Assembly (NCBI GenBank): GCA_025201365.1
Contig: JAIXMF010000001.1
Span: forward strand, 2,542,001-2,606,000
Length of the DNA: 64,000 nucleotides
Source: Syncephalis plumigaleata
Taxonomy: Eukaryota > Zoopagomycota > Zoopagomycetes > Zoopagales > Piptocephalidaceae
Direction of reading: 5' to 3'
The position numbers were made by a program, and so were the translations under genes. Under the pieces are notes generated by a model. The model saw only the letters and a program-made list of their open reading frames with translations. It did no database searches and had not been told where the DNA came from. This document shows positions 1-63,690 of the stretch, piece after piece; the stretch's first letter is position 1; every line of letters begins with the position of its first letter.

Positions 1-3000
1 AGGTGACGGCCAAGACAACCCGCCAGTCTGCCGCATTGCAGACATCCGATGCCTCCACTGGTAGATTGGAGGATGGCACGCCAGTTCCATCGGCTATCCC
101 GTTGACTATGGCCACCTCATCGTCGCGTTCTATCGATGAAGCAGAAGAAGAGGACGAGATGGGCGATGAAGAAGGTGAAATAGAGGCGATGTACGGACAA
201 CGATCATAGAGGAAAGGCAGCGATCTATGAGTGCTACGGCAGTCACGAGTACTACGACAACAATGGTAGAACAAGATAATCCGATCAAACCATGGCAACT
301 TCAATGGTAGCATCCTCTAACTATCCAGGTAAGTTATATTAGTTTGATATACGTGTATATTAATGTCCCTTTATTTGTATAGATACAAGTAATTATTCGC
401 TATTACCCTATCCAGATGATATGGATACCGATGATGGTGGTGGTGAAGATGAGGAGAAGAAGACGAAGAAGGTCTCCTATTGAGTACAGGTGGACATCGT
501 GCAAGCAACTCGCGATTAACCGCACGATGGACGGAGGGTGATCGATTAACGGCGCTCAAAGCGTATCAGCAGCATGGACGTGATTTCGAGGCAGTAGCAC
601 GAATAGTAGGCACGAAAACGGAAGGACAATGCCGTAACTACTATCATAACTATCGACGTAAGCATGGTGTAGCAGCATCTGAAGGTTACGCCTTGCTCAA
701 ACGAGCAGGTAAAGTGCCCGGTGTAATATATGATGATGAGATATAATTGCTGATCAAATGATGCAAGAAGAGATGGAAGACGACGAGTTGAAACAATTAA
801 CGAACAAGGTAATTGATGTGTATTAACAAATAGAATAGAATGATGAACTAACTAAACAATATTCTATAGACGAGGGATTAGGTCATTTATTGGGAGATGA
901 TATGGAAGAATCCGAGATGCTACTACCGTTGAATGGCGACGACCTTGATGATCCTAATAGTGTCGAGGCAAGATTAGCAGCAGTTGCCGAGATTGCTCAA
1001 CAGCAACAACAAAGTAAAGGTACCAGCAATGCTGTCACGACATCTCGTAAACCACAGAGTAGAGCAAGATTCCATAGAAAATCATCTACTCCTACCGCAA
1101 CTACTGCCATTGCAACTAATACAACTACTGGCAATGATGGTATGGACCTATTACCCGATACAAATCATCCTCGAAGCAATAGTTATCAACGTGGTAGAGG
1201 ACGTGGCCGTGGTGCTAGTAGTAGTAGTAGTATCAACAGCAATGTCGTTAGTAATAGCAGCAGTAGTAGCAATAACAATGGTGGACGTCGTGCTTCTGTA
1301 ACACCACTTCAAGTGGCTAATCGACTACGACATAGTGGCATATCATCGGCTGCCTCTGAAGTGTTGGCTGAAATATCACCTGATATACTACCAGAGATGA
1401 TGTCAGGTTATTATGAACGGGAAGTGGTACGCTCACCATCTAAGGAACGAACATTCATCATCATCATTATTATTACGCAATGACAACAATGACGATAATG
1501 CTAATAATGATTATGACTATTCGAATCCCATTGAAGCATCCAATACAAATATCATACCAACCCCATCCTCGCCACCTGCTCATGATCCTATGGCAGCATT
1601 GGCAGCAGTAGCGGCAGCTCGTAGTCTTATGGAGGATACACCATTGGCATCAGTAGTAGCGGCAGCAGCTGCAGCAGCAGCATCGACATCATCGACATCA
1701 TCTACTACGAATACACATGGTGTACCTAGTAGTGACAAGCCACGATCTGTAAAAAGAGGTCGTCCCTCGGAAGACATGTCACACATGGGAGATCGATCAT
1801 CTGATGGAGTTGTAGCAGGCAACATTACAGCACATAAAAGCCCCATTTATGATCAACAGCCACAGCCACAGCCACAGCAACAGCAACAACAGCAATCTCC
1901 CATTACTAATTCCGCTACATTAATGGATGATATGGCAGGAGCACAAGTATTGGCACAATTAGCAGTATCATTACAGCAACAACAACAGAAACCACAATCT
2001 ACCTCTCAACCCATTGATTCTACACCTGCCACTACCACTACCACTGCTACTACTAGTGCTACTACTACTACTAATGATACACAACCACAAGTTACGGGTA
2101 ATCGTAAGAAACGTCGAGTCCGTGTACCAAATCCTTTAAATACATCGGGTAATGCCGTATCTAGTGGTCAGCCCTCATTACCTGGATCGGAAATGAGCCC
2201 AGTATCATCTACTACTAGTAGTGGCAATAGAAAACCTACCTATTCCTCATACTGGTCGGTAGCGGAGAAGAGTAATTTCATGCAATTATTAATGGTATAC
2301 GGTCGAGATTTCGCTAGTATCTCACAAGCATTAAAGACAAAGACCATCATTCAAGTGCGTAATTACTATCAAAGCCATGCGGAACAATTGGATCTAGAAA
2401 GTATTACGGCACAAAGTGGTAATCAGTCAGCATCAGCATCATCATCATCGCTCGCCAATAATGCAACAACTACTGCAACATCACATAAACAATCGAATGC
2501 ACCTGTTGTAAATAAGGAACGCGATACAATGAAAGCGATGATGTCACGAGAAACAGATATGTCACATCCTCCTCCTCCTCCTCCTCATCATCATCATCAT
2601 CATCCTCATCATGTAGCATCATCAATGGTACAGAGTCCTGATCTTCCAGTGAGTGCACTCATCGGTCCACGTCCAGGTTATTTCTCAGTAAATACTACAA
2701 CTAGTAGTAGCAATAGTGGTAATAGTAATAATGTCAATCATCATTATATACCATCCAATGAAGCAATGACTACTACTACTGCTACTGCTATTGCTGCTAC
2801 TAGACCATCATCACCTCCACCATCAAGAAGTATTTCTAGTATTAACGCCCTACTTAATAATGAAGAACCACCTATTGATCCACTGTTAGGAGATGATGAT
2901 GATGACAATGATAGATTAGTTAATAATCGACATTATATTACTAATAGTAATAGTAGTACCACTGCTACTCGTAATATTCCATCATCTACCTCAATGATGA

Positions 3001-3845
3001 CTACGAATACTGCTGCACCTCCAATGGCTCATTATACAAATACGACAAGTCATCATCACACGATAACTAATAATAGTAATCCTGTTACGAATACACCTGG
3101 TAATACTGCGTATTTATCACATCAACAATATCAACAATATCAGCAGTATCAGCATCAACAGCATCAGCAGCAACATCATCGTTCAATGTCATCAACAATG
3201 GTAGCTCCACCTACACCACAACCCTCCTTGGCTGGTTATCATGCATATCATGGATCTACGGTTATGCCACCACACTCACCTGCTCATCCACATCATAATC
3301 ATCCACATCATATGAATCAAGCAATGGCAACATCGTATAACCCTAATAATCCTACTAACAATCCAAATACTAATCATCCATTACATTATACGACATCATC
3401 CATGTACCCTCCTCCTCCTTCCCCTTCCTCTTCTTCTACGCAACCCTATCCTACATCGATGGCACATCCACCACATACTCCTACTGCAGCTTATTATTAT
3501 AGTACATCAATGGGTACTGCACAACATACAACACATGGTAGTGCTAGTGGTGCTGCTGGTGGTAATGGCTATCTAGCATCACCATCTCATCGATTAAGTA
3601 TGAGTGGTGGTAGTGGTGCAGCAGCTGCTGCCACACCCTCTCCACATTTATCACATCCAATGTACGCCAATATGAATTCACCCTCGCTTCCTACAATTCA
3701 TCATGCTAATCCATCTATGAATCATCCACATGCACCATCATCGATGCTTAGAGCACCACCACCACCACCACCTACTACGAATACGAATACAAATACGACA
3801 CCAGGTTATCATCCTCATCCACATTCTCATTCTCATCCATATTAA
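1..3845 (+). CDS. SNT1: Two-SANT-domain co-repressor protein, Snt1/NCoR-like (5' partial)
   Basis: This is probably a scaffold subunit of a histone deacetylase complex (Set3C/NCoR type) acting in the nucleus. Two SANT domains are visible. The first (about 515-670) contains ARWTEGDRLTALKAYQQHG and ends in TKTEGQCRNYYHNYRRKHG. The second (about 2,250-2,400) contains SYWSVAEKSNFMQLLMVYGRD and TKTIIQVRNYYQSHAEQL. The spacing and the TKTxxQ(C/V)RNYY signature are typical of Snt1/NCoR/CoREST SANT domains. The rest is low complexity: acidic at the start, an RGRGRGRG run near 1,195, then Q-, T/N-, H- and P-rich stretches to a His/Pro-rich end. Introns are visible at about 331-383 and 811-870. The true start lies off the window. 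The frame is lost by one base near 205, 312, 480, 745, across the second intron, and again near 1,450; see the finding on single-base deficits. It converges on the eRF3 gene. Confidence 0.75.
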
Positions 3846-6371: not shown

Positions 6372-7606
6372 GGTCGTGTAATCAAAGAGAAAGAGATCAA
6401 AAAAGGGTAAAGAAAGAGAGAAATACTCACAAGTAGCGCAATTGACTATAGAACGCTATAACTAGTATCCAGAATCGTGCTACTATGGCCGTACTTGTTT
6501 ATAGAGCCACGTATAGTATAAGAAAGCTGCCACGACAAAACCAAGTGAAGCGAAAGAGGAGACGGTTAGACGACGAATATTAACATCGACAGAGAGCACT
6601 TTGTTCGTTCACGTCTTTTCATTATGATGGAAAAAATCATAATTCATATTAGATCGAATCCGCTCAAGTCGAGTCAATTTCAACAATTTAGTTGTAATAA
6701 TGAAGGCAAGACCAAATGACATTGAACTAAAATCATTTTACGGGTCTTCTACTACCATCGTCTACCACAAGCACTCGTATTTATGGCTACTTTTATTACT
6801 GTTTCATTTGTTTATATCTTGATTTCATCAAACTAATGTTAATATTACATCGATGATAATGGAATGGAATGATTATGCAAATGTTATTGTCATCATCGTG
6901 GTATGGATTAATTTACATTCAACTATACTCATACACATAATGTTTAATACAATCATTTCAATAGAATTTGACTAGTCATGATGGTTGTAACAGGTATACT
7001 CGTCATCATTGATGAAGTATTCTGAAATGATGACGATGTGTAGATTCAGACAATTGACAGACCATGCGGTTACACGACATGACAGGCATTCATTCATGCA
7101 TCTAATTGGTGCTAATCTGCTCTGTATACTACCTACAAGCAATGAATTGACAATGCAGTCATACCAATATCCACTACTGATTTGCATAATGCTGTTGGAA
7201 CAGTATTACCCTATCATTCAGATAGCAAATCTACTGGTCAATATCCACATGGATGGCATGGTAGACGTGCAGTCCGATAGATGTTCCATCATTCCGAGTA
7301 CAATCCATGTACAGAGGAGAGTATCGTATGGAGATAGTCTGACTGTGGTCTATGACCGTCTTATTATGCTCACTAGGAAGATCCGCCATCATCACTATCA
7401 TCTCGGCTATAAATCAAGCACATTTTGACACCCTCGACTTGCCATCTTCATACTCGCTCTTCTATTCTATTCTACTCTAGCTACTACTACTATCACTACT
7501 CGTATATACCACTGCCTTATATTATCGTTCTATTCTACTCTCACCACTTTCTGCTCTCGTTCTAGTCAGCTTATCTGTCTATCCATTCCACTAGGCCAAC
7601 ATCAAC
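6372..7606. other. Intergenic region; divergent promoters of eRF3 and the micro-exon gene
   Basis: This stretch lies between the eRF3 start and the micro-exon gene start. I see no supported gene. A 139-codon open frame on the plus strand (7,009-7,428) has no recognisable protein features. The distal part (about 7,430-7,600) is rich in CTATTCTACTCT-type pyrimidine runs, as often seen in fungal 5' leaders. Confidence 0.5.
7408..7414 (+). promoter_or_regulatory. Candidate TATA box of the micro-exon gene
   Basis: TATAAAT lies about 200 bp before the ATG at 7,607 and is followed by a pyrimidine-rich leader. Similar TATAAAT boxes precede GFA1 and the secreted-peptide gene at 26,344, also a few hundred bases before the start codon, suggesting strongly expressed genes. 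Confidence 0.45.
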
Positions 7607-10600
7607 ATGAAGTTCTCTGCCATTATCGCTATTGCCGTCGCCGTTGTCGCTGTCGCCAGTCTGGTCGCCGTTGAAGCCAAGCCCGCATTGGCCCGTCGTG
7701 GTATGTCACAGGAACAACAAGAACAATGATAGTAATGGACACTAACTGACTCATTAATAATTGCTCGATAGCTGGCAAGTCTACCATTTGACCACAATGT
7801 CCCGTGTATTAACCATGCTGTAACACTATTTGTACATTTATTCCGTCAATAGTTGGTATGTTGTCAGTGTAATAATGATCCGATTCGATGTGCTAACTGT
7901 ATTATAATCATGCTCAATCCTCATATATATGTGTGTGTGTGTCTATTCCGATAGTCGAACGTAGGTTTGCCAATAAATAAATAAACCACCTGACATGCTA
8001 CTAATCATACTGCCATATCGACACGGTACATGGATCAATAGGCCGTAAGTAGTAGTCATGTCATGCTGACCATACCATTCAATGAGCTAACACCATACAA
8101 ATGGAATTATTCCACAAATAGGTGGTACGTATGACTACTATGGCCATGTCGATTGATGTACTAATCGTAGTCTATTGTTTCATTGTTCATTGATGATTGC
8201 CGATAGCTCGTAAGTTCATGTATATTAAATGGTTGTTTTGAGGTGCTAATCATATTGTAATGTTTATTTTAGCTGTCGAAGCAGACGTGAATGCTAGTAA
8301 GCTGTACCATTGACTGTAACGTGTATTGTGCTAATTGTAGTGTAAATCAATATCATGTGCGGCTACCATTTTCAAGAGGAAGTAAGTCACCATTCTGACT
8401 GCTGTTTACAGTATACTAACCTCACTATAACGCACGGTCTACCTATGTTCCTTATGATAGGGCGTAAGCTATTATTATGATTATAATTTATGAGTGTACT
8501 AATTACAACATGACATATAATTTACACATTTTTCTATACAATAGAAAGTAAGTTGCCATTCTGACTCTTATGAATGACGTACTAACAACGATGTAATTCA
8601 CGATTCATTTGTGATTAACAGAGTGTAAGTCAGCATTCTAATCGTAACATTTAACATGCTAAACATAATTTGGTACACAACTTGTCCATGGTTATACGCG
8701 ATAGGACGTAAGTCAACACTCTAGTCACAATAGATAATGCGCTGACGGTGATGTATGCCACACGATTTACACGTGATTACTTGTAATAGTCTGTAAGCTA
8801 GCACGCTAATCACAATACACATAATACGCTAATAACAATGTTGTACGCAATCCACGTATATTCACATGCAATAGTCTGTAAGTTAGTATCATTATTGCAA
8901 GATGTAGTACGCTAATGACAAATGGCACTCGGTCCACGCATGACTATGCATAACAGGATGTATGTTAGCATTCCAATCATAATATTAATGGTACTAAATG
9001 CAGTATGGTACACGGATTACGTACGTTTGTGCATAAACAGGAAGTAAGTTATTACTCTGGTTGTAATGAATGGATGTACTAATCACGCTATGCCATATGA
9101 TTCACATATATCTTTGCCTACACTAGCCTGTAAGTTATTATTTCTGACTGCAATGTATGCTTACTATTCACACTATGGCGTATAATCCACGTATGTTTGT
9201 ATACGATAGAGTGTAAGTTGACATTTCAATCGTAATATATGGCGTACTAACCACAGTATCGGCACGTAATCCACATATGTTTCCGTGTAACAGGATGTAA
9301 GTTGTCATTCTGACTGCAATGAATGGATGTACTAATTATGATATAACACATGCTCCATACATCTGCCTACACCAGTCTGTAAGTTGTCATTTTGATCGTA
9401 GTGAATGGTGTACTAATCACGCTATGCCATATGATTCATATATATTTTTGTTTATGATAGGGTGTAAGTAATTATTTTCACCATAATGAATGGATGTACT
9501 GATTATGATATGCCATATGATTTACATATATCTTTGCTTACACCAGTCTGTAAGTCGTCATTTTGACCGTAATGAATGAATGTACTAATCACGCTATGCC
9601 ATATGATCCACATACGCTCCTGTATGATAGGATGTAAGTCGTCATTTTGACCGTAATGAATGGATGCACTGATTATGATATGACACATGCTCCACGTATG
9701 CTCATGTATGATAGCATGTAAGTAATCATTTTTACTGCAATGAATAGATATACTAATAATACTGTGACACATGATCCACATATGCTCCTGTATGAAGGGT
9801 GTAAGTAATTATTTTGATTGTAGTGAATGATGTACTAATCACAACATGGCCCATGATCCACCTATGCTCCTGTATGATAGCTTGTAAGTAATTATTTTGA
9901 TTGTAGTGAATGAGTACTAATCACGCTATGCCATATGATTTACATATATCTTTGCCTACACCAGTCTGTAAGTTGTCATTTTGATCGTAGTGAATGGTGT
10001 ACTAATTACACTATGGCATATGATTCACGTATGCTCCTGTATGAAGGGTGTAAGTTGTCATTTTGATCGTAGTGAATGATGTACTAATCACAACATGACC
10101 CATGATTCACGTATGCTTCTGTATGATAGGGTGTAAGTTATCATTTTGACCGTAATGAATGAATATACTAATAATACTGTGGCACATGATCCACGTATGC
10201 TCATGTATGATAGCATGTAAGTAATCATTTTTACTGCAATGAATGGATATACTAATAATACTGTGGCACATGATCCACGTATGCTTCTGTATGATAGCAT
10301 GTAAGTTACCATTTTGACCGTAATGAATGGATATACTAATAATATTGTGGCACATGATTCATGCATGGTTGTGTATACCAGCCTGTAAGTTAATATCGCG
10401 ATGATGTCGTACGGTGTACTAACTACATTTTGGCACATGATCCACGTATGTTCGTGTATGATAGCATGTAAGTTGTCATTCTGACCATAATGAATGGATG
10501 TACTAATCACGGTACGGTACACAATCCATACATATTTTTGCATAACAGGGCGTAAGTGCACACTCCAATCGTCATTTACGCTATGCTAATCACAATACAA

Positions 10601-10634
10601 TCTATATTAATTGATTGAATAGCCACAAGGTTAA
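7607..10634 (+). CDS. Secreted peptide gene made of micro-exons, 26 of them consecutive single codons
   Basis: Exon 1 (7,607-7,700) encodes a signal peptide, MKFSAIIAIAVAVVAV then ASLVAVEA, followed by KPALARR. Further exons are 7,772-7,774; 7,853-7,855; 7,955-7,960; 8,042-8,044; 8,122-8,124; 8,207-8,209; 8,273-8,296 and 8,377-8,381, adding AVVERRAPVEADVNAKE. Then come 26 exons of exactly 3 nt (first 8,461-8,463, last 10,549-10,551), read in phase 0 as one codon each. They start G-K-S-D-S-S-D-E-P-S-D-S and are rich in Ser, Asp, Gly and His. The last coding exon (10,623-10,634) adds PQG and TAA. The lengths sum to 234 nt, giving 77 residues. Each junction shows AG, three bases, then GTAAGT (or GTAAGC/GTATGT), and nearly every intron has a (T/G)NCTAA(T/C)-like branch site. 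Intron 2 uses a GC donor. ARR and ERR are candidate Kex2-type cleavage sites. The exon 8/9 boundaries are the least certain, since an alternative donor exists at 8,287. Function is unknown; the peptide is presumably secreted. Confidence 0.72.
8382..10622 (+). repeat. Tandem array of about 27 related introns with a period near 84 bp
   Basis: Units are typically 81 bp of intron plus a 3-bp exon. Copies share the order GTAAGT, then a TCATTTTGACCGTAATGAA-like segment, GTACTAATCAC branch site, a CATATGATTCAC-like segment, and TATGATAG acceptor. Copies from about 9,300 to 10,550 are closely similar; those nearer the 5' end are more diverged. Donor, branch and acceptor sites are kept while the spacer drifts, arguing that splicing is under selection. 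Because the period is a multiple of three, long antisense open frames run through the array; these are shadows. Confidence 0.9.
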
Positions 10635-10993
10635 GCGGTAAGTAATAATCCAACAAACCATACTCATACTAATCCACTATGATTACAGGACAAGCCAAGG
10701 ACATCATCAAGTAGATATTATAGGTATTCAAGTCAAGAATGGATTGGTGCAAGCCCCTTTAGTGTTCATGTCATTCAAGTCATTATTCCTTGGTACAACA
10801 GCAACAAGTATATCTACAAGATCATTCAATCATTTATTGAATAAATATGTCGTATTCTGATCATTATAATTATTGTTAGCAATGCATTAATAACTTATTA
10901 TTGCAACTAATCAATCAATCGACATTCCGTTGGCTATGTAAAGCATCATGTAATATCCCAGTATCATATTCGTCTTTCTATTTATTCATTCAT
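10635..10993 (+). other. 3' untranslated region of the micro-exon gene
   Basis: The exon holding the stop codon ends at about 10,637 and is followed by one further intron (10,638-10,688, with a TACTAAT branch site). A terminal exon then carries AATAAA at 10,840-10,845. The stretch to 10,993 holds the converging end of the next gene and nothing else I can support. Confidence 0.55.
10840..10845 (+). terminator. Candidate polyadenylation signal of the micro-exon gene
   Basis: AATAAA lies in the last exon, about 150 bp downstream of the final acceptor at 10,688. Convergent with the minus-strand coiled-coil gene, whose stop is at 10,994. Confidence 0.45.
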
Positions 10994-62022: not shown

Positions 62023-63690
62023 ATGAGCACCAGATATCAATCAGCAAGGGAACGCAGAGCCAATCAGTCACAGCAGTACCAGCGGCAGGATTCAACAGAG
62101 AATCAATCGTCAGATAATACAGTTGTCGAGCAACAATCACCACCATCGTCAGACACAGAAGTTTACTACGACACAGAGGCAGAACTTACAGTTACATACG
62201 ACTCGGAAGAAGAAAATACGGCTACGACACCCCCATTAACAGGCACTAGCACGTACCGCGTCCCAAGTACACCATCATCAGAAGGATCAATCAACATCGA
62301 CTTCCTCCCGGAGACTCACCGGGAATCAGACCTATCGCCTGCCCTAGATCAACGGCTATTAACAGCGTCATCACACACATCATCACCAGTACCGCGCTCG
62401 TCGTCATCGCAATCGAACAACACCGAAATAGTAGACACGAACATGGGAGACCCAGTAGATATTCGTGACCTCATCCGCAACCTTATGCAGGAAGCACTAC
62501 AGGATATGCGTGCAACCATCGCCCACGACATGCAAACGGAGTTACAACCTATACAACAACAGTTAAACGACGTCACAAACCCTAATGCGGCGACACACGC
62601 AACAACCGTCGATCCCGCAACACCACAACCAATCAATCACGACGCGTTAGTCGCCGCTATCACGGCAGCAGTCAATGCTAGTAATCACGGACGTTTAGCC
62701 GGTGGCCACCGCGACTTGTGGTTATCGCCGAAGGCACCGGAATATCAAGGCCGCGACAGTGAGGTACCCTTCAATATATGGTGCAGGATGATATCGGACG
62801 AGGTCAGAATGTACGCCGATTGGACAGAGGAGCAGAAAGTGTGGGCAATCACTCGACAATTGAAGGGTGAAGCCGCCACGTGGTATCAGTTCTATGCAGA
62901 ACAGGCAGATGCCGGTCGCCCAGGTTACACGCCAATCACCACTTGGGAACAGCTGCAAGCGGCGTTACGTAACCACTTCCATCCCAGGGAGCAAACACAC
63001 GTGCTGCTAACTCGATTCGACAATCTCAGACAGGATCGGCGGCCACTATCCGCGTACCTCACGGAATTCCAACAGCTGGTGATGCAACTTCCGGAACTAC
63101 CCGAGGAACTCAAGATACACCGTTTCCGCAGCGGACTATCCATATCCCGCTGGCAAACAGAGTTCAACATCCGCAATCCGACCACATTGAACGAAGCCAT
63201 CGAATTCGCTATGTACCTGGATTCAACACGATCCAACAACAATAGCAACAACAACAACCGCTATAGCCGACTCACCTACCAACCGCAACGCTCCGCCCAA
63301 CCACTACAATACCGCGGACCGCAGCCGATGGAACTCGACGAGATGGCGTTTCAACCGGGGCCAAACGACTGTTTTAACTGTGGCCAGCCTGGTCACCGGC
63401 GTTTCGAGTGCACCAATCAGTCGAGGTGCTACAACTGTGGTCGTCACGGTCATACGACACGCAATTGTACGCAGAATCGACCCCACGCGCACCGAGCACC
63501 CCCAGCCAACCGTCCCGCCGCCACAATGACACCTCGTCAAGCCCCCATCGCACGGGCCGGCCAACGCGCAGCTCAGCCAGCCCATCGTCGCCCGCGGCTA
63601 AATAATGTTGAGTTCGGCGAAGGTGCGGTACCAACCGCCGACATCCACGAATACGAAGCAGATGCGGAGGATTTTGCCGCCGACCAGTAA
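62023..63690 (+). CDS. gag: Gag polyprotein of the Ty3/gypsy element
   Basis: An open frame of 555 residues belonging to the LTR retrotransposon. Order of parts: a Ser/Thr/Glu-rich N-terminal region; a capsid-like retrotransposon Gag domain with GEAATWYQFYAEQ, TWEQLQAALRNHFHP and PLSAYLTEFQQLVMQLPE; an Asn-rich linker; then two CCHC zinc knuckles (CFNCGQPGHRRFEC and CYNCGRHGHTTRNC) and a Pro/Ala-rich tail. The knuckle pair and capsid pattern fit Ty3/gypsy Gag of fungal elements. The codon and base composition is GC-richer than neighbouring host genes. Confidence 0.9.
   Translation: MSTRYQSARERRANQSQQYQRQDSTENQSSDNTVVEQQSPPSSDTEVYYDTEAELTVTYDSEEENTATTPPLTGTSTYRVPSTPSSEGSINIDFLPETHRESDLSPALDQRLLTASSHTSSPVPRSSSSQSNNTEIVDTNMGDPVDIRDLIRNLMQEALQDMRATIAHDMQTELQPIQQQLNDVTNPNAATHATTVDPATPQPINHDALVAAITAAVNASNHGRLAGGHRDLWLSPKAPEYQGRDSEVPFNIWCRMISDEVRMYADWTEEQKVWAITRQLKGEAATWYQFYAEQADAGRPGYTPITTWEQLQAALRNHFHPREQTHVLLTRFDNLRQDRRPLSAYLTEFQQLVMQLPELPEELKIHRFRSGLSISRWQTEFNIRNPTTLNEAIEFAMYLDSTRSNNNSNNNNRYSRLTYQPQRSAQPLQYRGPQPMELDEMAFQPGPNDCFNCGQPGHRRFECTNQSRCYNCGRHGHTTRNCTQNRPHAHRAPPANRPAATMTPRQAPIARAGQRAAQPAHRRPRLNNVEFGEGAVPTADIHEYEADAEDFAADQ

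Follow-up and report, generated by a model that had tools for sequence, protein, structure and literature searches.

A secreted-peptide gene on the forward strand of the 64-kb stretch of Syncephalis plumigaleata DNA analyzed here (the window; gene at 7607 to 10637, ATG at 7607) is best explained, with a probability of about 0.88, as a member of a large secreted-peptide family of this species in which the C-terminal part of the product would be encoded at one codon per exon, the short introns would be removed by stepwise intron definition, and the genes would grow and shrink by whole units. The gene anatomy, the near absence of stop codons, the grammar shared at both gene ends, and the intronless joined copies were observed directly. 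S. plumigaleata is placed in Zoopagomycota, Zoopagales, Piptocephalidaceae, and Syncephalis is a parasite of other fungi. The species is named in PMC7865070.

The window gene comprised 36 coding exons with lengths, in order, of 94, 3, 3, 6, 3, 3, 3, 24, and 5 nt, 26 x 3 nt, and 15 nt (Table 1); 31 of the 36 were 3 nt long and 26 of these were consecutive (8461 to 10551). An earlier note on this DNA had proposed the run as part of a single gene, and each of its coordinates proved exact under the pattern AG-NNN-GTA[AT]G[TC], the five further 3-nt exons that it placed upstream (exons 2, 3, 5, 6, and 7) were borne out, and recomputation returned the same coding total of 234 nt including the stop and the same 77-residue product (MKFSAIIAIAVAVVAVASLVAVEAKPALARRAVVERRAPVEADVNAKEGKSDSSDEPSDSGSDHGLSGGHHPHGPQG). 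The introns were 63–99 nt long (mean 79.8) with GTAAGT as the donor in 26 of 35, and 34 of the 35 contained a branch-like site of the loose form [CT]T[AG]A[CT]. The second donor was GC, and AAG rather than YAG acceptors preceded two exons of the run (9798 and 10047) and likewise the 5-nt exon (8377). Exon 1 encodes MKFSA..., with a signal peptide recognized by eye rather than by a predictor. The frame was set by the 5-nt exon AGGAA followed by a single codon in each exon, and the peptide appears to be built one amino acid per exon along the run; an alternative reading of exon 9 is the 3-nt GAA with acceptor AGAG. The later part of the run formed an 84-nt tandem array with a 249-nt higher-order period, so that its one-codon exon copies are not independent events. 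Elsewhere in the window, a low-complexity ORF of 810 aa, in which a SANT-like stretch can be made out by eye, lies upstream of the gene (1413 to 3845, + strand), a 555-aa ORF (62023 to 63690, + strand) has CCHC-like zinc knuckles by eye resembling an LTR retrotransposon gag, and the GC content is 54% between 62001 and 64000.

Table 1. Coordinates of the one-codon-exon gene and its flanking elements in the window.
Feature	Position	Strand	Remark
TATAAA element, possible promoter	7408..7413	+	upstream of the gene; seen in the sequence, role inferred
Exon 1, 94 nt; holds the start codon, the signal peptide, and the first RR; phase 1 at its end	7607..7700	+	signal peptide judged by eye
Exon 2, CTG, 3 nt; GC donor follows	7772..7774	+	joined in intronless L075 and L081
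Exon 3, TTG, 3 nt	7853..7855	+	joined in intronless copies
Exon 4, TCGAAC, 6 nt	7955..7960	+	joined in intronless copies
Exon 5, GCC, 3 nt	8042..8044	+	joined in intronless copies
Exon 6, GTG, 3 nt	8122..8124	+	joined in intronless copies
Exon 7, CTC, 3 nt	8207..8209	+	joined in intronless copies
Exon 8, 24 nt	8273..8296	+	near-identical exon in L042
Exon 9, AGGAA, 5 nt; intron phase 1 to 0	8377..8381	+	possible AGCCC counterpart in L042
Exons 10–35, one-codon run, 26 consecutive	8461..10551	+	pattern and genome-wide tests
Run starts, exons 10–22	8461, 8545, 8622, 8705, 8790, 8875, 8957, 9041, 9127, 9210, 9294, 9376, 9461		
Run starts, exons 23–35	9547, 9631, 9715, 9798, 9881, 9965, 10047, 10130, 10214, 10298, 10382, 10465, 10549		
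Tandem array, 84-nt unit of intron plus codon, 17.3 copies, 74% matches	9063..10510	+	later part of the run
Terminal coding exon, CCA CAA GGT TAA GCG, 15 nt	10623..10637	+	TAARCRGTAAGTAATAATCC matches genome-wide
Last intron, within the 3' untranslated region	10638..10688	+	missing at 35 genomic sites
3' untranslated exon, AATAAA at 10840–10845; end approximate	10689..10870	+	

The three-base spacing of the splice-like motifs is not due to chance. Within the window, [CT]AG and GTA[AT]G[TC] were separated by 3 nt at 27 sites in the gene and six elsewhere (+ strand), and every other spacer from 0 to 30 nt gave at most six sites per strand. Scans of the whole assembly (32.6 Mb, 383 contigs), with the reversed pattern as control, yielded 1,057 matches to the strict motif TATRAYAG-NNN-GTAAGT compared to two in the control, and zero matches (control 12) when four bases replaced the three. 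Consecutive 3-nt exons (GTAAGT, a gap of 50–80 nt, YAG, NNN, GTAAGT) numbered 1,036 + 905 = 1,941, against 31 + 16 = 47 in the control. None of the 1,057 strict genome-wide motifs held an in-frame TAA or TGA, and TAG was absent from the 85 TRK matches of the strict motif, all of which were TAT, TGT, or TGG.

Among the fetched loci, a single stop (in L062) was found in 537 strict exons where column shuffles predicted 13.3, and a permissive set of 609 units contained four stop triplets, three in g1412k and one in L062. Across 427 adjacent pairs the shifted readings gave 43 stops in phase 1 and four in phase 2, and the antisense reading of the strict exons had four stops in 537, such that stop avoidance clearly separates phase 0 from phase 1 only and the case for phase 0 over phase 2 leans more on both gene ends than on the stops. 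The run being a recognizable 84-nt tandem array, in which repetition alone multiplies motifs, it might instead be a non-coding repeat within a long intron or 3' region, the splice-like motifs being relics and exon 1 (or exon 9) joining the terminal exon or the transcript stopping early. This was judged very improbable, as nothing evident would hold such a repeat to exactly three bases or keep it free of stops, and the lack of in-frame stops in the strict genome-wide motifs argues against it, as do the gene ends and the intronless tails described below.

The observation of the earlier note holds, but the gene belongs to a family spread over the genome and does not stand alone. A signal-peptide protein query against the assembly gave 149 matches from the 150 scored of 166 candidates, 148 of them covering the signal-peptide exon, a figure that is a lower bound because scoring was limited to those 150. 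The terminal-exon pattern TAARCRGTAAGTAATAATCC had 120 genomic matches with up to two mismatches (control 6), of which at least three of those listed lacked the TAA. As haplotype-like contig duplicates (e.g., C186/C362) and the signal exons of intronless copies are included in such counts, the gene number is inexact and the family probably comprises about a hundred genes. A protein search with the 77-aa product returned seven matches at E up to 1, all from Syncephalis plumigaleata.

A frame-free parser revealed a common grammar in the paralogues, with a 94-nt signal exon ending in phase 1 (94 nt in most parsed paralogues), small phase-1 exons (typically 3 and 9 nt), usually one 5- or 2-nt exon that shifts to phase 0 (present before the run in most others parsed), the one-codon run, and a terminal exon of 9–15 nt of the form X...TAA GC[AG]. 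After a rule for the 5-nt exon was added, the parser reached the terminal exon in 22 of 29 loci and failed to do so in seven; nine of the 22 were fully open (L006 and L044 only through the added rule), two ended at a TGA there, and 11 were not open. In the nine parsed loci the terminal TAA exon closes the frame opened by the 5- or 2-nt exon, and this opening and closing on both sides counts against a non-coding repeat. The parser follows the runs, but in several loci it wrongly set the short exon preceding them; the window gene itself was among the 11 because the parser chose GAA over AGGAA and missed two AAG acceptors, and its model required a hand choice at 8377 and those two acceptors. A frame-constrained parser was dropped after running past the terminal exon in many loci.

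L042 had the same layout of exons 2–8 as the window gene, with a 5-nt exon possible at the same position (CAAG|AGCCC|GTAAGT). The parsed loci L045, L061, and L062 showed no clear shift exon of 5 or 2 nt, and g1383k and L039, with first exons of 91 and 92 nt, gave no open model in the parser. Further loci were also observed. The ~7 kb g1412k (C1:1411281-1418351, minus strand) has roughly 55 one-codon-exon sites and the family 3' end, with no standard signal-peptide start within the stretch examined. In L043 (C1:2254800-2257200), a start that resembles a signal peptide but differs from that of the family precedes four one-codon-exon signals in a row; the introns are by eye unlike the family unit, and the locus is possibly an independent case. 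In L054 (C13:662600-666800), the array gene is followed downstream by a second ORF that looks secreted and contains a long repeat of the GFGATSPGIGGGL type.

Parts of these runs also appear in deposited gene models. In BDF22DRAFT_685685 (P0003), 38 residues corresponded to L050 single-codon exons in genomic order with two genomic ones skipped (longest unbroken run 26), and 24 consecutive residues of the partial BDF22DRAFT_685769 (P0009) corresponded to L049 single-codon exons. The two exons omitted from the L050 model were GGA (GTGAGT donor) and CCT (GTAAGT donor), and by eye a 9-nt exon and TGC were also left out. Also by eye, P0003 reads into the last intron at its end and P0005 into an intron, so these models look like automatic prediction. 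In the annotation examined here, the large secreted family is often truncated or omitted.

The omissions from L050 could also mean that the exons are real but included partially and under regulation, each gene giving rise to a mixture of peptides. All run exons are symmetrical single codons, so skipping any of them always keeps the frame, and a preference for symmetrical micro-exons is described for the schistosome micro-exon genes (MEGs), in the newly described members of which 26 of 33 (79%) micro-exons shorter than 36 bp were symmetrical according to the consulted portion of PMC4671649. Regulated inclusion is a tentative second reading, since the omissions from the deposited models may be prediction errors and the mostly GTAAGT donors of the run favor constitutive use.

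Intronless genomic copies of the family suggest that the introns would be removed from the mRNA. Fusion of TAAGC[AG] to AACAAGACAAGGACATC, with the last intron missing, was found at 35 sites (up to two mismatches; control 0). Reading 21 of these sites together with L056, L064, and L065 gave 24 intronless copies, of which 21 retained the start motif; in 14 the frame stayed open up to the expected stop or close to it, and the others were broken or lacked the start. L075 and L081 contain a 28-nt string equal to the end of window exon 1 plus exons 2–7 with nothing between, and L072 carries the same joined string minus one base. With this exact joining of exons 2–7 and the counterparts of the gene model, frame, and terminal TAA exon in paralogues, the earlier interpretation of the window gene is supported at the level of sequence; the data being genomic, splicing of its own 26-exon run is argued from the family. 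Three codon-string patterns from the intronless tails were searched for an intron-containing parent and had no match, and as no array parent was found for these strings, the evidence of exact joining covers exons 2–7 and not the 26-exon run.

The intronless tails, up to about 50 codons long, shared the synonymous codon usage of the one-codon exons. For 13 tails (338 codons; 13 of the 14 open copies, L080 excluded, with L067/L078 and L070/L084 being related pairs) the correlation was r = 0.79 with the one-codon exons (55 codons) and r = 0.00 with ordinary genes, and family exon 1 showed the reverse (r = 0.20 and 0.58, respectively). Long tails with this usage would not be expected from a non-coding repeat. 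In 19 intronless copies compared, similarity extended upstream to about −190 or further in eight and stopped at approximately −70 to −170 in the others, and no poly(A) tract was present in the 40 nt past the alignment end of the copies compared. The copies are therefore not plain retroposed, which suggests an origin by cDNA-mediated intron loss rather than plain retroposition. Reverse-transcriptase-mediated intron loss has been inferred for 1-nt exons among the plant microexons, in the part of PMC8831610 available.

The lack of poly(A) in those 40 nt and the upstream similarity in eight of 19 copies would also suit the opposite direction, with the intronless genes ancestral and introns inserted between codons by an introner-like gain, involving neither unit multiplication nor cDNA-derived copies. 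This is unlikely, because the units follow one another head-to-tail and each includes its codon, insertion would have had to strike every codon boundary in one phase, and the tails match the one-codon exons in codon usage instead of ordinary genes. A difference of whole units between copies also counts against intron insertion, as the similar copies L008 and L087 are distinguished by a 996-bp block, equivalent to about twelve 83-nt units.

Nearest-neighbor unit pairs showed an exon divergence about two to five times the intron divergence, and the exons exceeded all 45 held-out intron control triplets in each of four divergence bins (in the closest bin, 0.287 per site vs. a control mean of 0.079). 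In 125 close unit pairs, 56 had the same codon, seven a synonymous one, and 62 a non-synonymous one. Four haplotype-like pairs differed at 0/108, 5/54, 0/45, and 2/54 exon positions and, in the same order, at 11/3544, 39/1776, 16/1363, and 55/1804 intron positions, with an exon excess in the second pair only, whose alignment contains a 996-bp gap. Since constraint on the introns or concerted evolution could account for some of the exon signal, positive selection is not claimed, and the pattern is taken as fast turnover at the unit level. Synonymous codon usage of the one-codon exons was uncorrelated with that of ordinary genes (r = −0.03; stretches of the window served as ordinary genes), and splice-site context may lie behind it.

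The introns had the features of U2-type splicing, namely a GT(AAGT) donor, a CTRAY branch site, and a YAG acceptor. In 275 training introns the length was 79.7 nt (sd 3.7), and CTRAY was present in 236 with the branch A on average 42 nt from the intron end; as these introns were picked by AG-NNN-GTA[AT]G[TC], their donor consensus is partly by construction, and the donors of the 609 permissive units were also strongly GTAAGT-like. With a length of ~80 nt, strong donors of the GTAAGT type, and a branch site of the CTAAY type lying ~42 nt ahead of the AG, the introns could each be recognized singly by ordinary U2-type intron definition. Three exonic bases leave hardly any room for binding at both splice sites, which makes intron definition with stepwise joining most likely. 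The two introns beside a 3-nt exon could not be processed at once and would be taken out one after the other: a codon would first be ligated to the upstream exon, forming its new end, and the donor that follows would come into use only then. A strong donor would offset the free choice of exonic bases. Unequal exchange of the 80–85-nt intron-plus-codon unit would then add or remove single residues with the frame intact.

The family peptides are very variable and combine a signal peptide with dibasic RR sites and, in several, a C...CC...C pattern. Each Cys is its own exon in several loci, including L006 (CTGVCCNVGKDGCQGWMRDW), L058 (CQFDINGMCCHSTPDGNFSC), and L059 (CEWDYNGYCCHSTPGGGFSC), and the intronless L065, the 3' part of which is without the family junction, has a contiguous C...CC...C pattern (CDKEKCCIMDSDIC); the window peptide has no cysteine. 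A Pfam search with six family peptides gave no match above the cut-off and two weak sub-threshold matches, neither of them to a MEG. The family peptides are probably effectors or antagonistic peptides against host fungi.

In the general sense the window gene is a micro-exon gene, having its signal peptide in a long exon 1 and 3 nt in 31 of 36 exons. The Schistosoma MEGs likewise encode small secreted proteins of a parasite from a long signal-peptide first exon, central, mostly symmetrical micro-exons, and a long last exon (PMC4671649, in excerpt). In S. plumigaleata every exon of the run has exactly 3 nt and is in tandem with its intron, and the likeness considered here is one of architecture. 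The aphid bicycle genes also form a sizeable and rapidly evolving family, the products of which are putative secreted effectors; nearly all of their many tiny internal exons share one phase, mostly phase 2, the genes average about 17 exons, and protein length follows exon number (PMC9168663, in excerpt). The S. plumigaleata runs differ in being in phase 0 (window model and nine open paralogues) and at one codon each, with 26 such exons in the window gene and about 40 in L050, and in belonging to a fungus instead of an insect. Plant microexons of 1–15 nt share real spliced exons down to 1 nt and intronless copies, whereas they are mostly single, conserved, and in conserved genes, with no long runs or tandem units described in the accessible part of PMC8831610.

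In recursive splicing a piece is ligated to the exon before it, after which a 5' splice site located at their junction or close to it can become usable; such RS-exons serve a choice between skipping or including a longer exon, as far as the excerpts of PMC6224609 extend, whereas every 3-nt piece in S. plumigaleata would stay in the mRNA. The SP7-like effectors of Glomeromycotina, with a family signature and a conserved intron before the repeats, were considered by partial description only. In the literature searched, with subscription papers and bioRxiv mostly outside its scope, no account of one-codon-exon runs or of this S. plumigaleata family was found. The family is regarded as an extreme form of micro-exon genes and not as a member of the MEG or bicycle families, the available descriptions of which lack the serial one-codon limit and the tandem unit.

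Serial in-phase single-codon exons test the shortest exon that the spliceosome passes and whether stepwise work is obligatory, and the one-codon-exon genes would offer a natural system for minimal-exon splicing while pointing to gene growth by single residues. For S. plumigaleata, the observations somewhat favor a codon-by-codon modular peptide system in which about two thousand one-codon exons in approximately a hundred or more genes would act as one-residue cassettes, dozens of 3-nt exons being joined serially in a transcript, and in which unequal exchange and possibly frame-safe skipping would provide the mycoparasite with a retunable peptide repertoire.
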